A DNA stretch of 64,000 bases from Dillenia suffruticosa. Lineage: Eukaryota > Streptophyta > Magnoliopsida > Dilleniales > Dilleniaceae. Every line of letters begins with the position of its first letter. The first letter of the stretch is position 1. Location: contig JAVTVX010000030.1 of NCBI GenBank assembly GCA_033439265.1, positions 4,714,501-4,778,500 of the forward strand, written 5' to 3'. Shown one piece after another: positions 5,535 through 61,530 of this stretch. The position numbers and the translations under genes are program-made. Under the pieces are notes generated by a model. The model searched no databases. It worked only from the letters and a program-made list of their open reading frames with translations, and was not told where the DNA came from.

Positions 5535-6547
5535 CAATACAAGAAAATATATTATCAGAAATGAAAAATTACCGACGGAAAAAAATCCGTAGCAATAGCG
5601 ATAGATTTGCGATGGATTAACGCCAAACTGAATACCAAGAGATTAACGACAGAAATATTTTCGTCGCTAATCTGTTGTTATAGTGGTCCACGAAAAAAAA
5701 AAATTTGTTAAACGCATCAATGACAGATTATCGACGAAATTTTTAGCGACGGAAATTTTTCGTCGCTAATCTATCGGTATAGTGGAGAAGAATAAAAATA
5801 AATAAATGTAGCTATTAGTGACAGATTAGCGATAGAAATTTTAGCGATGAATTACCGATGGAAAATTTAACGACGGATTTTTTTAAATTTTTTTAAATTT
5901 TTAATTTTTTTAATTTTTTTTAATTTTTTTAATTTTTAATTTTTTATTTAATAATTCTTTTTCCTTTTCTTTTTATTTTATTTTGTGAAAAAATAATAGT
6001 ATTTTATTTTTTAAAATTTTGTAATATTTTATTTTAAATTATTATTTTATTATTATTAATTTATAATTAATATCATTTTATTATTTCATTTTTGTAATAT
6101 TTTATTATTACTATTTTATAATAAAATATCATTTTAATTTATTTTTTATTATTAAAAAGTGTGTGATGAAGAGAACAAATAAAAAACAAAGAATATGGTA
6201 AGAAAATCTAATGTGGTGTGGTTGTTATGGTGTCCTATGACTTGGGCGGGTGTGTTGGCCGGGTCGGGCGGGGGCGGGTGCCACATGGCAGAGCGTGGAG
6301 CCGTTCCTGAGAGCTTAAAAATGTGCTAAAAAATCAGCGACGGAATTTTTTCTATTGCTGATTTTTTCCAAACTTTTTTCCTATTTTTTTTCAGCGACAG
6401 ATTTTTTTCCGTTACTAATCCGATACTGATATTTGTGACAGAAAAAAAAATCTGTTATTGAAAATTAACGGGGTCACTTTTAGCGACTGAAAAAGAAAGT
6501 TTCAACGACGAATTTTTTCATCAGTGAAGCCATTTTTTCTAATAGTG
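5535..6547. mobile_element. Non-autonomous CACTA element, 1013 bp, TSD ATA
   Basis: The left end reads CAATACAAGAAAATA, a one-base variant of the usual CACTACAAGAAAA. The right end reads TTTTTTCTAATAGTG, the inverse of CACTATTAGAAAAAA. Subterminal zones carry many copies of GCGACGGA and its complement TCCGTCGC, some slightly changed. The 3-bp target duplication ATA (5532-5534 and 6548-6550) is confirmed by the sister LTR at 4554-4570, which holds the same flanks joined with a single ATA (4558-4560). The core has AT-rich sequence and a GC-rich patch at about 6235-6300. No transposase is present, so it would depend on a CACTA (En/Spm) transposase elsewhere. Confidence 0.9.
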
Positions 6548-11401: not shown

Positions 11402-14400
11402 GAAAATCTTTGGAAAAATAAGAAAGGGCCATTGATTATTTTTAATTTCTGATAGGGTTTGCGAATGGAGTTTCGAGTGTGGTATTCGTGAGATGAAATG
11501 AGTGAGCAAAGCTAGAATTGACAACGACGCAATTGGTTGGTCGAAATATGGTTTGTTCACTTATAGGATAGTTTCAAGTCTATGATGGATCAAAAATCTT
11601 TGGTATATTTTGTGAACTGTCATTAAATTCTGACGTCGAATGTGTGGAATACTTGGTAAAGCAGAGAGGAATTTCGAGCTTCATTGTCCTCCTGAGCCAT
11701 TGGATGCTAGTATTTTCGATGCCCTATAGATGATAGAAAACAGAAAATAAGAGCAGAAACAACTAAGAATTGGGTGAAATTTGAAGTAGGAACAATAGAG
11801 TGAATTAGGGTTTGATGTCTCATGTTCCTCTTGTCAAAATTATAAAACGCGCCGTGAAAAAAAAGTCTTAGAATCCTCTTTAAACTAGGGCTACATTAAA
11901 TCTATAACTGTAGCCTTTCATTAAAATAATCCTCTTTTAATTTCAACCTTCAATTCTCATTAAAAGTCATATGCTAGTCACGTGACTAATTTTACTGAAT
12001 AATGCTATTTGTCACTAAATTAATTTCACCATTTTGTCACACTTACTAGTCATGGAAAGAATCTTATTTCCTTGTTTATTTTTAACACAAATATTTTTAA
12101 AAATTTTACCATGTTTAGTAGGTGATGTAAGATAGGTGAACATGCAATGTATAACTTATACTTTTAAAAACAAAGTCTGGAAACATAAATAACATTTTGA
12201 GAATTCAGTGAAATAAATAATTAAAAGCTATTGAAATCAAAACAGTTAGATAAGCTTCTGGAATGCTTCTACATCCTTTGCATATTAGGTGCTTTTTTGC
12301 CATATACTTGGACAATGGGGGTGATACATATAGCATAGCTCGTCATGTCTTGTAGTGAGATCAATTGCCAGGGTATGTGTCCTTTAAAACTTGAATAGGA
12401 TGTACTTTGTGCCAATGGGATTATTCTAAAGTCTGTTAAACTGAAGCATTCAAAGGGCTAGTTCCAAAAACCTGGAATCCACATGTGAATATAAAGAAAC
12501 TCGACATTTTCAAGCTATATTTTATTACTTTAACATAGAAAAAAAAAGTTCCAAGCAAATGTAACTATTCATTTTGAGACCTAAAGTGTCTGTAGCATGG
12601 GAATCAAGCAAGAGGAAATAATTTCTAGTTGTTAAAAGAAAAAAAAAAACATAATAAGTGAACAAGTGGTCCTGCATTCAATATTTTGATGACATGTACA
12701 CAATGTTGGGGTATAAAATGTCCTTTAAATTCTCTCCTCTTTGGTAACATGTTAGTTCTATGTATACCATTAAAATTACTTGAGATCTAAAAGGCAATAC
12801 TTTTTTTTTGCAAAGACAACTTACTGTTTTCCTCTTGAAAATATTTTCTGTTGTGATGCTTATTCACATCTTTTTATACTTGGCATTTGTCTCTCTAGCT
12901 TCTTCACTTTTATCTTGGATTGCATGCTAGTATTTGGCCATGTATTTGCCTCATACACTCACCTCTTGAGCTCATGACTCGGTCCACAGCATCCCTAGCA
13001 GGCTTAACATACTCCACCATCAAGGCTAACTCTATTGTAGTACTGCGAAGCATTGTTTTAAGAAAACATGGCTTGATGAAACTTATTAGATAATTGCTTT
13101 GGATGATTACCACAAATACTTCTCGACATGTATGCTTCACAATCTCCGCTTGGTCATTGATTTGCAAATGTATTTTTTTTTTTTTAAATAATATTTTGGT
13201 GAACATAAAAAATGGCTTAGGATTTACCATCAGAGTTGTAAACAATTGTCTTTGGCTCTACTACATGCAAATGAACCACTTCATCAAAGAATACCAGTAC
13301 TGTGCGAAGGATTCTAATCGTCCAAATATAAAGAATGCCAATTTAGAAATTTTAACACTGAGCAGTGTATTCCATGCCTCATTGTATCATTAGTGATCCT
13401 GGCAAAGATCCATAAGAAGACATTTTCAAATACCTTGAGCACTGATAAGGGGATACGCAATTCTGTGTTTTGCTTTTTTGTCTTTAAGCTTCTTTACATG
13501 CATAGCATTCGAAAACATAATACACAACATCTCTATTTTAGACATTTAGATTATTTTTCATAGTGGATGGAGTCAAACCATTTTTCTTAGTGAATATAGG
13601 GTTTGATATTGCTTCCCTTTTGCTTGAGTCGGCTTCCCACAAATATTAGAGATGGTCATACTTATTGCAAGGCTCACCTTATGCAAACAACATGTGCATC
13701 ACATTACTTTGAGAAAGCTAATTAAGGCAGAGTAAGTACCTACATTATTCTTAATTTCTTTTGATAAAACAGACCTCGCTTTCTTGTTGCTTTACTGGAA
13801 CTTATCCTTGTTGCATTTGGTTAAAGAAGACAAAGAAATGTTGAAATTGCATAGACGCAAAAGAGGGTGGATAAACCCAACTACGGTTTATTTGCTATTG
13901 AAATGGCATCGCCACCCAAAACACTTGCTTTATTATGAAAGCTATTGACAATTCCTTAGTTGATACAATTTCAATGATGTTCACTTCATAAATTTTTTCC
14001 CATAAATCCAAGCTATTTGACATATCCTTTAATTTGGAAATGAGAAATTCATTGCAATCAATGATCTTCTTAGTGCTCTAGCATTCACATGGCCAACTTC
14101 CTTCCTCTGCTAGTGTTAGGGACCTATGGAGTTGTGCGCTGAGGGATTTACTTTGTCTCCTGTGTATCTTTCACAGTTGCAAAGTATTTCTCCCCATGAC
14201 TTAATATCGCAGTTTGCTAAGTAAGGCAAAATCCCCTGGGATAAATCTATTTGACATTCGCCCTTGTAAATATCGCAGTGTTGTCATTTTTGGTAGCAAC
14301 TCATTATCTTTCTCCAATGGCTGGTTGAATCTGAAAGTAGTCATCCACCATCTTTTTATTCATGTCTACTTTTGGATTTACTATTTAATCATCAACTTCT

Positions 14401-33659: not shown

Positions 33660-35975
33660 AAGAAAATAAATCTAGTGATACACAATCTTTCACAATACGC
33701 AATAAAAAAGATGATTTTAATTTATGAAATTATTTTATAAGAAATTATAAGGAGTAAAAGGCAACATATAAAATTTGTATACAAAAATACAAATTTATGA
33801 AGAGTTGGGGAGTGAGAATACTTAAAAGACATATGATAAGAGATCACTCGAATCAATTATCTCAAATTATGCAAACACAAATCACCACTGGTGGGGAGAA
33901 TGTCTCAGATACGTTCAGATAAAATCTAAAAGCAAAAAAAAATGGACAAATAGAATGGATAATACGTTGGGACTTATAACTTAGTATAGTAGAATGTGAA
34001 ATATTTGAGGAGATCATACAAAAATATTTACAAATATTTACAATCGTGTTATAAAAAAAAGTAATAGAAAAACGGGTAGGAGGAAAACACTAGAACAATT
34101 TCAAATAATGAAAAATGTTTTAATTACAAATTTTATAACATTTTTTGTAAATTTTCTATAATTTTGGATAGTTGGAAGGGACGTCAAGGTAAACATTATA
34201 TTATTGTAACACGTCATTGAATTAGTGATTCATGGGATCTACAAAAAGAATTTTATCTTGTCAATATTGGGAACCCCAACATTCCGGTTTTACTAAAACT
34301 AAAATAATTACTAACACTACTAGAAAATGAATTTTCAGTGACGGAAAATTACCGACAAATTTTTTTCATCAGTAATAGCGATGGAATTGCGATGGATTAG
34401 TGACTGATTTTGTATAATTTTTTAATTTTTTTAATTTTTTAATTTTAAGTTTTTTTAATTTTTTGTAAACCTATTAGCGACGGATTACCGACGGATTTAA
34501 AATTTTTTAAAAAAAATTTTAAAATTTTAATTTTTTTAATTTTTTATAAATCTATCAGCGACGGATTACCAACAGACCTAGTCCGTCACTGATTTTTTTT
34601 TAGCGACGGATTTTTTTCTGTCACTGATATTAGCGACAAAAAAAATCCGTCGCTGATATTTAGCGAGATTACTATTAGCGATGGAAAAAAATCTGACGCT
34701 GATACTCTTCAGCGACGGAAAAGAGACTTTTAGCGACAGATTTTTCTATCGCTGAAAGTCCATTTTCATATAGTGTAATATTTATCATGAATATGATATT
34801 AGTGATAGAATTTTTTATATGTTTTTAGATAATGTATCGGTTAATACTAGTGTCATTAGTACTTTAAAATATAATTTAAAATCAATATTATATGGAACAT
34901 TTTTTTTAATAATAAGTATGTATGTCATATATTGAATTTATGTATTAAAAATGATCTTTCAAAATCTATTCGCGAATTAATATTTTAAATTAAAAATTTT
35001 TTGGTCAAAACACAAGAAATGAGATATTTATATAATTTACATAATATAAAATGTAAACGATTAAACAAAAAAAGGTGACACCAAATGAACTCTACTTATG
35101 ATATGTTATAATATATTATTTCTTTTAAATAAGTTTTAATTGAATTTATTAATTCTAATTATAAATATTGTTTTATTTGTACTATCTCTTTTGATTTTGT
35201 AAATATACTAATTGAATTATTAAAAATTTTTTATACATATACAAATTTATTTTTTAAGATTTACTATCTAACAATTCATTTGATGTTAAGTAATATTTGT
35301 CATAGTTGTTATGTATTTAGTTGATTTGAAAATAAAAATAGAATTAATGATATTATTCAACTAATGAAAATAAAACTTTTAAAATATTATGAAGAAATTC
35401 CTCATTTGTATTTTAGATCCACGTGTAAAAATTAATAGTGTTGAAACTTTAATTAATTGTTTTATTGTTAGTTTTCTTACAAAAACATGTTAGTACCACT
35501 CATTTAAAACAACGCACTTTTCCTACTTTATAAAATATGTTTGCATTATACAAAGAGAAATATGATAATACATGTGGTAATGATGAAGATTGTGGTAGTA
35601 ATATATCATTGTCCATCTTTAATTTCCTTTAATTCTTACAATATGTTAGGAAAAAATAAAAAATATCATTATCGTCTTCGTTACTAAATGAATTGATTTT
35701 ATATCAACAAACACGTGAATTAAAGGGTTGTGATGATAATTATTTCGATATTTTAATTTGATGGAAAAATAATTCAACTTACGTTTCAATTTTGGTCACA
35801 ATGGCCAGAGACATTCTAACCCCTCCGGTGTCTATAGTAATATCGGAAAGTGTTTTTAGTGCAAATGGTCAAGTTTATCGGAGAAGCGTACAAAATTGAC
35901 AGACAATACTTTGGAAGCGTCGATTTATCTTAAAAATTGGCACAATGCAACAAAAAGGAAGTAAGACATGGAAAA
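33660..35975 (+). pseudogene. Decayed hAT transposase
   Basis: Three parts of a hAT transposase can be read in order. A BED-type zinc-finger remnant lies at about 33780-33925 (SWGVRILKRHMIRDH; its Cys pair is not clearly kept). A core piece after the nested CACTA lies at about 34820-34905 (LDNVSVNTSVISTLKYNL, compare the family's LDNAS.N motif). The C-terminal dimerisation domain lies at about 35715-35935 (MARDILTPPVSIVISES, then FSANGQVYRR). Stops and frame changes occur throughout, for example a TGA after FDILI and stops after SVQN, and a CACTA copy splits the gene. It cannot make a working transposase. Confidence 0.8.
34315..34775. mobile_element. Non-autonomous CACTA element, 461 bp, TSD TAA
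   Basis: Starts CACTACTAGAAAATGAAT and ends ATTTTCATATAGTG, with TAA on both sides (34312-34314 and 34776-34778). Nearly all of the interior is subterminal-type repeat (GCGACGGA, TCCGTCGC and variants) plus AAATTTTTTAATTTT spacers. It sits inside the hAT element and splits its transposase. There is no coding capacity. Confidence 0.9.
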
Positions 35976-36323: not shown

Positions 36324-37373
36324 CACCACTAGAAAACGGACTTTCAGCGATAGAAAAATCCGTCGCTGAAAGTTTATTTTTTGTCACCGAAGAGTATTAG
36401 CAACGGATTTTTTCCATCGCTAACAGTGACCACGCTAAATATTAGCGACAGATTTTTTTTGTTGCTAATATCAGTGATGAATTAGCGATGAAAAAAATCT
36501 ATCGCTGATATTAACGATGAAAAAAAATTTGTTATTGAAAAACAAAAAAATCAGTGACGGACTCGATCCATCGCTAATTTTTGAGTTCTGCAAAAAAAAA
36601 AGAGCATGCTCCCGCCCGTGGACTGCCTCCTTTAAAATTTGGGAAAATTCATTTGAGAGGAATCGAAGATGTGCATGGTAAAAGCATTAATAACATCACA
36701 ACCATCAGACCTCAAGGATACATCTATTCATATATTTTTTTATTTGTTATCTTTATCACATAATTTTTTTAATAATAAATAAATAATTTAAAATGATAAT
36801 TTTTTATAAATTAATAAATTATTATCTTAAAATAAATTAATAAAAATGTTTAACAAAATAAAATAAATAGAAAAAGATAAATAATTATTAAATAAATTTT
36901 AAAATTAAAAAATTAAAAAAAAAACAAAAAAACAAAAAAATAAAAATTCCGTTGGTATTCCGTCGGTAATCCGTCGCTAAAATTTCTGTCAGTAATCCAT
37001 CGGTAAAATTTCTGTCGATAATCCATCACTAAAATTTTTATCGATAATCCGTCGTTGATACCTGTACAAATTTTATTTTTAATTTTTTTTACCTTTCTGC
37101 ACTTTATCGACGGATTAGCGATAGAAACTTTTTGTCACTAAAAATTTATTGGTAATCCGTTGCTGAAATGTTTACAAATTTTATAAATATTTTTTTTACT
37201 GTTTAGCAAAGGATTAGTGACGAAAATTTTTCGTCACTAATTTCTATCGTTAATTTCTCGTTAATCCCTTAATATTCAATTCAACATTAATCTGTTAGAA
37301 ATCTATCACTATTATCAATGGATTTCATTCTGTCAGTAATTATCCATCGTTGATATTGCTTTTTCTTGTAGTG
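36324..37373. mobile_element. Non-autonomous CACTA element, 1050 bp, TSD TTT
   Basis: Starts CACCACTAGAAAACGGACTT and ends TTTTTCTTGTAGTG, with TTT on both sides (36321-36323 and 37374-37376). GCGACGGA-type repeats fill the outer parts (36340-36580 and 36945-37370). The core at 36598-36720 is less AT-rich (GCATGCTCCCGCCCGTGG) and next to it lies a possible tRNA-like unit on the minus strand (B-box-like CTTCGATTCCT at 36658-36668, A-box-like TGATGGTTGTGATG at 36694-36707). No transposase is present. It is nested in the 3' part of the hAT element. Confidence 0.9.
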
Positions 37374-58794: not shown

Positions 58795-58925
58795 TTTCTT
58801 CTTTTTAGTTTGCTCTCCTTCGGCCTTCGTTCTGACATGCAAGCAGGAGACTCGAACTTCTGACATATTTGTTGGAAGGGCAAGAGGATATCATTGGGCC
58901 AAACATCATTATAAGTTCCCCCCCC
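58795..58925 (-). mobile_element. tRNA-derived SINE-like head
   Basis: On the minus strand, TTTGGCCCAATGATATCC (A-box region) is followed by AGTTCGAGTCTCCTGC (B-box region, plus-strand 58843-58858). This resembles the GGTTCGAGTCC core of plant tRNA-type SINEs. A C9 and A-rich stretch (58918-58965) adjoins it. Body and tail are not resolved. Confidence 0.4.
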
Positions 58926-59885
58926 CAAAAAAAAGGGTAAAAAAAAAATTAAAAAAAAAACCCAACCCCACACTTCTTTACATGTTAGAGCTATTTGGTT
59001 AGAATTACTTCACTACAAAAAAACACGGTTTTAGCCACGGATTTTCGCGACGGAAAAAATTCGTCGCTATTTTGCGACGGATTTAGCGACGAAAAACTTT
59101 TTCGTCGCTAATTGGCCACAAAATTTGCAACAAAAAAAAGTCGTGGCTAAATTAGCGACGGACACATTATTCGTAGCATAATTCGTCGCTAATTAGTGAC
59201 GAAAAATTTTCGTGACTAAATTCGTCGCTAATTAGTGACGAAAAAAGTTTCGTCGCTAAATTCGTCGCCAATTGGGGACAAAAAATTTTTTGTTGCAAAT
59301 TTCGTCGCTAAATATGACAAAATTTTGCCACAAATTTAAAATTCGTCGCAAAATTTAATCTTTTTTAAATAAATAGAATTTTTTTTTTTATTTTTATTTT
59401 TCTTTTATTAATATGTAATATTTAAGTTAAAAATTAATTTAGCGACAAATTTATTTTCCGTCGCTAGATGAAAATCCAATCCGTATATCCGATAATTTAG
59501 CGACGAATTAAAATCCGTCGCTGAATTTATTTTATTTTTATTTTATTTTAATAATTTCAGCGACGGATTCCAAATCCGTCGCGTAATTTTATATTCTTTT
59601 AATTATAATTTTATTTTATTTTAATTTTATTTTACTAATTTATATTAACAAATCATATTATTATTTTATAATATTTTAATTTACATTTTATTTTATTAAG
59701 AATAATGTTATTTAATTCTTAAAAAAACCATATATTTTATTTTATTTAAAATATATATATTTTTTAATTAATTTATTATTTTTTTTACTTTTTTTGTTTG
59801 ATTTAATATTTTTTATTATTGTATAGGTAATTTTATTTTATTTGTATTATTTTATTCAATAATATAAATTAAAATTAAATATTAA

Positions 59886-60235
59886 TGTCTGCGTGGGCGC
59901 GGGCGCCGGCGCATGCACGCACGGGCGCCTGCCTGCCTGGGCGCCCGCGCCCTGCGTGCGCCTGTCTCGGCGCTCGCGGGTGCCTGCCTGGGCGCCCGCG
60001 CTTGGGCTTGCCTGCCTGGGCGCCTAGGCAGGCGTGCGGGCCCCCGCGCCCCAGCAGGAGCGCGCGCACGCCCGCGCGCCAGGCAGGCGCGCGGGCGCCC
60101 AGGCAGGCAGGCGCGGGCGCCCGCGCCCCAGCAGGCGCGCACGCACGCCCGCGCCTGGGCGTGCCTGCAGCAGGCGCCCGCGGCGCCAGGCAGGCAGGCG
60201 CGGGCGCCCGCGCCTGGGCGCCCTTTCTTTTAATT
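59886..60235. repeat. GC-rich tract with inverted GGCGCC/CAGGCAGG repeats
   Basis: About 350 bp of nearly pure GC in a very AT-rich setting, built from CTGCCTGGGCGCCCGCGC on the left and its complement on the right. The 22-base near-palindrome CCTGCCTGGGCGCCTAGGCAGG lies near the centre (60011-60032). Open frames exist in most phases because stop codons need A/T; they are Ala/Arg/Pro-rich and not proteins. Confidence 0.9.
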
Positions 60236-60245
60236 CTAAAAAAAC

Positions 60246-60325
60246 ATGCAGGTGGAGGGATTCAAACCTTGGACCTTAGACTTCGGATTTGAGCAGATCA
60301 CCATTGCACCATTGCTTGGTGTTAG
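60246..60325 (-). other. tRNA-like (Pol III box) module
   Basis: On the minus strand TGGTGCAATGG (plus-strand 60301-60311) resembles an A box and GGTTTGAATCC (60258-60268) a B box, about 35 bases apart, followed by CACCTGCATGTTTTTTT, a possible Pol III stop. It does not fold as a clean tRNA from what I can see. It points left, into the GC-rich tract. Confidence 0.45.
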
Positions 60326-60879
60326 TGTTTTAGTGATGATATTTTTATTTTCTTTCTTCCACCTTTTTGTTTCCTATTCTTACTTTTTTTTCTTTTGGTT
60401 TTTTTTCTTTTTATTTTCATTTCTTATATATAGTAATTTTATTGAAATTTGAATAAAAATATTTTGTGATTAAATATATAGATTTTTTAAATTATTATTA
60501 TATTATAATTTATTGATAATTATAATTTTATAGTTTTGAGATACATTTTTAAATTATGGATTAAAAAAATAAAATAAGAATGAAAAAGAATAATAAATTA
60601 ATAAAATAAAAGAAAAAAGAAGAAATCAAAATATAATATTAATATATTTTTTAATTAATTTATTATTTTATTTTCAATTAGTATTTTATTATTTTTTATT
60701 TTATTAAAAATTATAATATTTATTAGTTTTAATTAAATATTATTTTAGGTTGGTGGTATAAATAAAAATAGTTTTTATATTTATTATTTTAAATTGTTAT
60801 TATATATTATTTTATTATTATTAGAAAAATGTGAAAAAAAGATAATAAATAATAAAAAAAAAACTTTATATCACAATAA

Positions 60880-60960
60880 TATCGTTGGCTCGGTGGTTTA
60901 CAGGTTGCGTGTGTGCAGGAGTTCGTGTAGGAGTTCGGGGTTCGAACCACGGTGGAGGCA
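60880..60960 (+). other. tRNA-like (Pol III box) module
   Basis: TGGCTCGGTGG (60886-60896) matches the A-box pattern and GGGTTCGAACC (60938-60948) is a near-ideal B box, about 42 bases apart. It points right, into the second GC-rich tract. There is no convincing acceptor or anticodon stem, so it is better seen as a SINE-type or captured tRNA remnant than as a tRNA gene. Confidence 0.5.
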
Positions 60961-61003
60961 GGCAGAAGGCGCGGCATTTTCCAGCAATTAAGAGTTGATG
61001 CTG

Positions 61004-61135
61004 GCTCGGGCGGGCAGGTTGCAGGGCGGGCGGGCGGTCAGGTGGGGTGCTGGCTTGGGCGGGCAGGGTTGCAGGGCAAGCAGCTTGGGCGGGCAGGGTT
61101 GCAGGGCAGGCAGGTTGGATCTGCCGGCTCAGAGG
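61004..61135. repeat. 30-bp tandem repeat, about 3 copies, GC-rich
   Basis: Units starting CTTGGGCGGGCAGGGTTGCA at 61054 and 61084 are exactly 30 bases apart; a diverged first copy starts at 61004 (CTCGGGCGGGCAGGTTGCA). It lies between the plus-strand tRNA-like unit and the right subterminal repeats of the CACTA element. Confidence 0.85.
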
Positions 61136-61530
61136 GGGCATATGGAATCAGCGACGGATTTGGAATCCGTCGCTAATTCAGCGACGGATAATTTTTTGAC
61201 GGGTTTGTTTTCCGCTAAATTAGCGACGGATTTTAGCGACAAAAATTATCTGTCGCTAAATTTAGCGACGAATAATTTTTCGTCGCTAAATTTTGTGACG
61301 AATTTTAGCGACGAAAACTTATTTGTCGCTAAATTTAGCGACGGATTCCAGATTTTCGTCGCTAAATTTAGCGACGGATTTCTAATTTTCGTCGCTAAAT
61401 TTTTGCGACGCGTTATTAGCGATGAAAAATTTTTCGTCGCTAAATCCGTCGCTAATGTTTTTAGCGACGAATTTTTTTAAAATTTTCGTCGCTAAATTTG
61501 TGGCTAAAATACTGTTTTTTTGTAGTGCTT

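Follow-up and report, generated by a model that had tools for sequence, protein, structure and literature searches.

Can a cut-and-paste DNA transposon hold promoters of RNA polymerase III (Pol III) among its own parts? The question is raised by an element of Dillenia suffruticosa that occupies positions 59011-61527 of a 64,000-nucleotide stretch of contig JAVTVX010000030.1 (assembly GCA_033439265.1, positions 4,714,501 to 4,778,500; the whole stretch is called the window below, and positions are counted from its first letter). From the letters alone, this element had been predicted to be a CACTA transposon with two outward-facing tRNA-like modules, each feeding a GC-rich tract, and internal promoters of Pol III are not expected to be kept by cut-and-paste DNA transposons. 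Our analysis favors, with a probability of about 0.7, the reading that this is a copy belonging to a non-autonomous CACTA family with old, outward-directed, type-2 Pol III promoter-like units placed just inside its GC tracts. The units themselves are most likely old captured Pol III promoter-like sequences in a non-autonomous CACTA lineage.

Two outward-facing box pairs in a CACTA element

The element is an intact non-autonomous CACTA (En/Spm-type) transposon copy. Its terminal bases are identical between the two ends (14/14; CACTACAAAAAAA at 59011, the inverse ending at 61527), and CTT at 59008-59010 is repeated by the identical three bases at 61528-61530 as a target-site duplication. The left terminal inverted repeat (59011-59045, plus strand, starting CACTACAAAAAAACACGG) is 85% complementary over 34 nt to 61494-61527, in the right terminal inverted repeat (61491-61527, minus strand). 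Inward of these lie subterminal repeats, which are TTAGCGACG-type and in both orientations on the left (59046-59590), and at 61145-61490 on the right. The subterminal motif TTAGCGACGAAAA, allowing at most two mismatches, occurs 43 times in the window; shuffles have 1.55 matches on average, and none of 100 shuffles has as many. CACTA-starting terminal inverted repeats, a 3-bp target duplication and subterminal repeat arrays, the features by which CACTA elements are recognized, are all present. A tnp2-type transposase, as expected of an autonomous CACTA element, was not found in the 5 of 15 frames of at least 60 amino acids that were compared with Pfam; the comparison gave a single sub-threshold, unrelated match (E 0.32), and the longest stop-to-stop frame in the element has 162 amino acids. 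Judging from what is known of the family, a CACTA transposase supplied in trans would mobilize the element by way of its ends and subterminal repeats.

In the architecture that we propose, each side would carry, just inside its GC tract, an outward unit in which a spacer of about 32 nt, or 42 nt for the right unit of the focal copy, separates box A from box B, with a T run coming after box B. The yardstick was the type-2 Pol III consensus, box A TRGYnnARBGG and box B GGTTCRAnYCY (as excerpted from PMC7279448), with the boxes 30-40 bp apart. On the minus strand, the left unit has a box A at 60301-60311 (TGGTGCAATGG, 11/11 to consensus) and, 32 nt from it, a box B at 60258-60268 (GGTTTGAATCC, 10/11; family majority GGTTCGAATCC), and so has the sequence of a type-2 promoter. 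For the right unit, which lies on the plus strand, box A is at 60886-60896 (TGGCTCGGTGG, 10/11) and box B at 60939-60949 (GGTTCGAACCA, 10/11; family majority AGTTCGAACCA), with a spacing of 42, slightly above the range; its spacer includes a 12-bp tandem duplication (60913-60937, plus strand). Between the units lies an AT-rich core (60340-60860).

That these boxes are matches due to chance is very improbable. Coincidence would be easiest to accept for the right pair, which alone is not rare in 64 kb, where 0.55 pairs with at most two mismatches are expected. Nevertheless, a pair with at most one mismatch appeared in none of 1000 shuffles of the element (at most two mismatches, in 7) and in 8 of 300 shuffles of the whole window, and the five pairs with at most two mismatches that the window holds were reached by 0/300 shuffles. 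With a coarse matrix, the score of either unit was reached in 0/2000 element shuffles; in whole-window shuffles the right unit's score was reached in 5/200 and the left's in 0/200. No box pair with at most one mismatch was found outside the element in the 77,424 bases of flanking and window sequence scanned. Also arguing against chance are the recurrence of the left pair, without mismatch, in 20 of 38 sequences of the family and the recurrence of such a unit in another family, both described below. The predicted outward-facing box A/B units are therefore present, left on the minus and right on the plus strand, and exceed shuffles in both controls.

The term tRNA-like, applied to the units in the original prediction, fits the promoter boxes and not a tRNA structure. 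The covariance search that had been proposed for both units gave no RF00005 match at E<=10, nor did the left units of two other copies (L018 and L057) match; ARAGORN found 0 tRNAs in the window and in 13 loci; and the RNA folding of the two units is no better than that of shuffles (z 0.74 and 0.17). With the cloverleaf absent by RF00005 and ARAGORN and the folding unexceptional, the reading as a tRNA gene or pseudogene is rejected.

Might the units instead be copies of a short interspersed element (SINE) that landed inside a CACTA transposon? Their type-2 boxes, spaced as in tRNA genes, would agree with this, as would another box pair outside the element, at 58848-58901; still, we regard such insertions as improbable. 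Neither a body nor a tail, by which a SINE is defined, is found in the sequence: behind the left unit come a run of seven T (T7) and then, no more than about 20 bases on, the GC tract. No insertion duplication was seen around the left unit on inspection by eye. Furthermore, the best 40 of 266 candidate matches of the left unit all lie in CACTA copies (25 in copies already sampled, including the focal one, and 15 further), as do the best 40 of 1001 of the right unit (33 in copies already sampled and 7 further).

The outside pair just mentioned lies on the minus strand, 110 bp from the element, with two mismatches and a spacing of 32; its first run of at least four T comes 239 bases downstream, and it is possibly a separate SINE or tRNA relic. 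Another unit of the window, at 13569-13625, is weakly like the left unit (2/500 shuffles reach the score, in one of 21 pairs tested).

Within the focal copy, the unit on the left is not similar to the one on the right (414/500 shuffles reach the score), and the two are dissimilar also in two diverged copies, L057 and L051b. A single module copied to both sides, by duplication or inversion, is not supported by these comparisons.

Recurrence in the family and in a second one

The genome searched comprises 596 Mb in 37 contigs, and the element gave 4938 first-look candidates, of which the best 40 were scored. Among these 40, besides the query, 24 single-piece matches span at least 2295 of the 2517 bases with 83-94% identity; family members are mostly 2.3 to 2.6 kb long. 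The 3-bp target duplications match in 34/40 fetched copies, and at least one perfect 13-bp end is present in 40/40. The alignment consists of 38 fetched copies and the focal one. Two were left out: L050, which has no good left end, and L051, which was split into L051a and L051b for the tract and rate analyses. L057 was excluded from identity averages and included in box counts. From the 47-sequence set referred to below, L043, L053 and L074 were dropped, and of the 15 further copies that the left unit had led to, those without both ends by pattern were not added.

The left unit is found in the same orientation in 37 of the 38 other aligned copies; it is missing in L053, and in L029 it is present with part of box A deleted. 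The right unit is found in all 38, again in the same orientation. Counting the focal copy, the best left pair has no mismatch in 20 of 38 sequences, one in 14, two in 2, three in 1 and five in 1. The family-majority left boxes are perfect, while on the right the majority has 10/11 in box A and 9/11 in box B. The median divergence from the family majority is 2.2% (47 sequences), and the focal left unit is, on this alignment, a slightly decayed member of a family with a perfect majority. The alignment shows both units in the diverged subfamilies represented by L057 and L051b (71-75% identity), whose left unit also retains T7; the left pair of L057 has a spacing of 33 and three mismatches. The 12-bp spacer duplication is missing in L057 (right spacing 33) and in L033 (right spacing 30). 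The modules thus recur in full-length copies, in the same orientation, and the predicted plan is borne out as a family trait with one rearranged exception, L096 (G000:C16:3515900-3516900).

Two of the copies are of structural interest in their own right. Within the first 260 bases of L096, the left-unit sequence stands on the plus strand directly behind the CACTA end, framed by a 24-base inverted repeat and followed by the right arm. L051 (G000:C37:6627440-6632630) consists of two elements of different subfamilies, head to tail and touching, the second of which has no recognizable CACTA left end.

A second CACTA family adds to this picture. Its representative in the window, E4 (36327-37373), is a CACTA-type stretch whose ends are without a matching 3-bp duplication; it has one outward unit, at 36659-36712 on the minus strand, and its other arm has neither a GC stretch nor a box match with at most one mismatch. 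Taken alone in the window, the E4 unit (four mismatches, spacing 32) is near chance, with 9 such pairs observed and 4.3 expected, and it gained support only after the E4 family had been sampled. This family is older, the best 40 of 2546 candidates being mostly 66-80% identical, with E4 itself apart. The unit region was sampled in 12 relatives, picked from the 40 scored since their match covered the unit. In 9/12 the best minus-strand pair stands at spacing 32, with 0 to 4 mismatches (both boxes are perfect in L110); in L104, L106 and L107 the best pair is elsewhere or poor. The E4 majority unit has a perfect box B and a box A with two mismatches, followed by ATTTTCC and a G-rich tract, and its alignment score with the right unit of L057 is reached by 0/1000 shuffles. 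By alignment, the ancestor of the known subfamilies already had the units; given this and the right-unit homologue in a second family, they are old element parts rather than recent insertions. Their source would be a degenerate sequence, from a tRNA or a SINE head, that an ancestral element had taken up.

Another CACTA element of the window, E1 (5535-6547, target-site duplication ATA), has a right GC tract and no box B match with at most one mismatch inside the element. The similarity of its arm to E4 or to the right units is not beyond that of shuffles.

T runs, GC tracts and sequence constraint

A T run stands between each unit and its GC tract. On the left, T7 (60238-60244, minus strand; A7 on the plus strand) resembles a Pol III terminator and begins at the 14th base past box B. 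Every one of 38 sequences has a run of at least four T here, and in 30/38 the first such run is T7. The run on the right is T4 (60977-60980, plus strand), inside an ATTTTC that shows no variation among the 12 sequences of alignment A2; it begins at the 28th base past box B in the focal copy, starts 22 to 43 nt past it in 37/39 sequences, and is interrupted by an insertion in L022 and L025. At its four sites no substitution was counted in 47 sequences.

T7 is an effective terminator in a mammalian gene, according to an excerpt of PMC7279448. On the assumption that plant Pol III terminates at T7 like the mammalian enzyme, its place between left box B and the tract makes it most likely that Pol III would terminate ahead of that tract, and the left transcript would probably be short, not entering the hairpin tract. 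The right T4 is a weaker stop and may leak; Pol III would perhaps halt there too, and read-through on the right is possible. The idea that each unit feeds a GC-rich tract is consequently not supported, with T7 preceding the left tract and the weaker T4 preceding the right. Active units would give RNAs some 80 to 110 nt long that terminate at the T run; alternatively, they would bind TFIIIC without transcription.

The tracts are also unequal. The left one (59890-60222) is 85% GC, measured over 59890-60225, and strongly self-complementary, with z -7.6 in the focal copy and z -4.0 to -12.9 in 8 further copies. Its length among copies ranges from 55 to 439 bp by a sliding-GC rule, the lengths of L043, L053 and L074 being set aside as mis-delimited. 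The right tract (60990-61140, plus strand) is G-rich with 30-bp tandem repeats and has 68% GC over 60960-61140; its folding is unexceptional (z -1.4 in the focal copy, +1.7 to -2.6 in those 8 copies). The hairpin-forming GC sequence foreseen for both sides is accordingly confined to the left, and symmetric GC hairpins are ruled out by the folding of the right tract. Nor are the two tracts similar to each other (75/200 shuffles reach the score one way and 46/200 the other). In consequence, the plan called nearly symmetrical holds as a scheme of parts, with units that are mutually unrelated and GC tracts that are mutually unrelated. The right GC tract resembles that of E1, with 1/200 shuffles reaching the score in one of 12 comparisons.

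How fast the units change has a bearing on what they are. Counted by parsimony in the 47 sequences, the left unit has 2.0 changes per site, the right 1.24, the arms about 1.0 and the AT core 0.33, which makes the core the slowest-changing of the long regions compared. In nearly every region changes are more frequent at GC than at AT sites, and the gap between units and core is therefore partly one of base composition. The five fixed positions of left box A have a single change, and 0/20000 sets of sites matched by base are as low, drawn from a pool of 59 sites in the rest of the unit. Left box B has 22 changes at its six fixed positions, and 19969/20000 matched sets are as low or lower; its decay is partly by C-to-T and G-to-A changes at the CpG of the box. 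Box A thus looks protected and box B unconstrained in these alignments. The pattern would be compatible with units that are kept in source elements and decay after insertion, and it falls short of functional proof.

Two accounts of why the units persist have to be weighed here. In the first, to which we give somewhat less than an even chance, they are inert passengers: an ancestral CACTA element captured tRNA- or SINE-derived pieces, which have persisted merely from lying inside a replicating unit. The faster change of the units relative to the AT core and the decay of left box B, partly through CpG changes, point this way, as does the lack of relation between left and right units, which separate captures would predict. 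CACTA elements are, moreover, reported to acquire satellite and gene fragments (excerpt of PMC8978399). Passengers would not so readily explain why the family majority retains perfect left boxes, the spacing of 32 and T7, why left box A has changed so little (even if the comparison pool is 59 sites), and why such a unit recurs in a second family, where one pair is perfect.

The second account gives the units work to do, as TFIIIC/Pol III sites at the two inner borders that would hold the ends open, shield them from methylated GC-rich DNA, or produce small RNAs. This we consider unlikely, though it would accommodate the retained placement and orientation, seen in two subfamilies and, in the case of the right unit, also in a second family, together with the constraint on box A, the four substitution-free sites of T4 and the frequency of left T7. 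Against it stand the unconstrained left box B, the GC tract of E1 without a unit, and the presence of a unit on only one arm of E4; the argument from T4 concerns four sites, and two copies have it interrupted by insertion. More doubtful still is the narrower proposal that the CACTA lineage employs TFIIIC/Pol III sites as working parts, with the units at the arm borders attracting TFIIIC or yielding short, terminated RNAs, and thereby keeping the transposase-binding arms open or insulating them from a methylated GC-rich interior.

Returning to the reading that we favor, a non-autonomous family with old promoter-like units, several observations weigh against it. The best right pair is poorer than the left, having two mismatches in 16 of 39 sequences, three in 15, four in 7 and five in 1. 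In L051b the left pair has a spacing of 41 with two mismatches, and no right pair with at most three mismatches was found. The rearranged L096 has its left-unit sequence in the opposite (plus) orientation. The unit searches scored only the best 40 matches on each side, and other units in the genome, standing alone or divergent, may have escaped them. The lack of a tRNA structure in the units also counts against this reading. The rates give the units no overall extra conservation, since they change faster than the AT core, and the count at left box B is among the highest of its matched sets. Finally, homology of the E4 majority unit with the focal right unit is not seen (112/1000 shuffles reach the score), and its likeness to L051b (43/1000) and to the focal left unit (27/1000) is weak; because these comparisons do not, or only weakly, go beyond shuffles, the link to E4 runs through L057.

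Neighboring sequences and known systems

The right arm has a further property. The subterminal repeats there fold extremely strongly (61150-61527, z -17.9), and subterminal repeats of the element resemble plant microRNA precursor families in Rfam (MIR6297, MIR774 and MIR9563), below the gathering cut-offs. We take these matches as a likeness to CACTA-like hairpins; given the resemblance of the right arm, some catalogued precursors may derive from CACTA-like arms. Elsewhere in the window, 34315-34775 is a short CACTA-type element of 461 bp (target-site duplication TAA, 12 subterminal motifs), and the AT-rich 35800-35950, between two CACTA pieces, looks by eye like a decayed hAT transposase end. 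Searches of viral collections returned 0 loci, and 9 bacterial or metagenome loci matching by a palindromic motif were taken as chance matches.

The family opens a practical path. Related copies with two units, the left one perfect in the majority, together with a second-family homologue of the right unit make a direct test of a Pol III role feasible. Were the units working parts, the mobility or silencing of a DNA transposon would depend on the Pol III machinery. In either case, SINE and tRNA annotation calls for caution, as box A/B matches in this genome can belong to DNA transposons.

In the titles and abstracts of the open-access papers searched, with subscription papers and repeat databases outside this scope, no description of such units in CACTA elements was found. 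The original prediction, which knew of no described CACTA subtype with this plan, agrees with this, and our claim of novelty is limited to that literature. The nearest relatives are non-autonomous CACTA elements (SNAC; En/Spm, Tam1 and Tgm type), with which the element shares CACTA ends, a 3-bp duplication, subterminal repeat arrays and the absence of a detected transposase. It differs by its long GC tracts and by having an outward Pol III promoter-like unit at each inner border, features that go unmentioned for CACTA elements in the excerpts of PMC2613891, PMC4219821, PMC8978399 and PMC9033089. With tRNA genes the left unit has in common its two boxes and a T run that is, by our reckoning, at about the place of a tRNA-gene terminator, whereas the units have no cloverleaf by Rfam or ARAGORN. 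The likeness to tRNA-derived SINEs consists in box A and box B at tRNA-like spacing; in contrast to SINEs, the units reside inside a DNA transposon, and no body, tail or insertion duplication of their own was seen. Maize Spm, lastly, has a GC-rich downstream control region beside its subterminal repeats, paralleling the GC-rich tract inside the subterminal repeats of the Dillenia element, whereas here tracts lie on both sides of an element without genes and are bordered by box A/B units.

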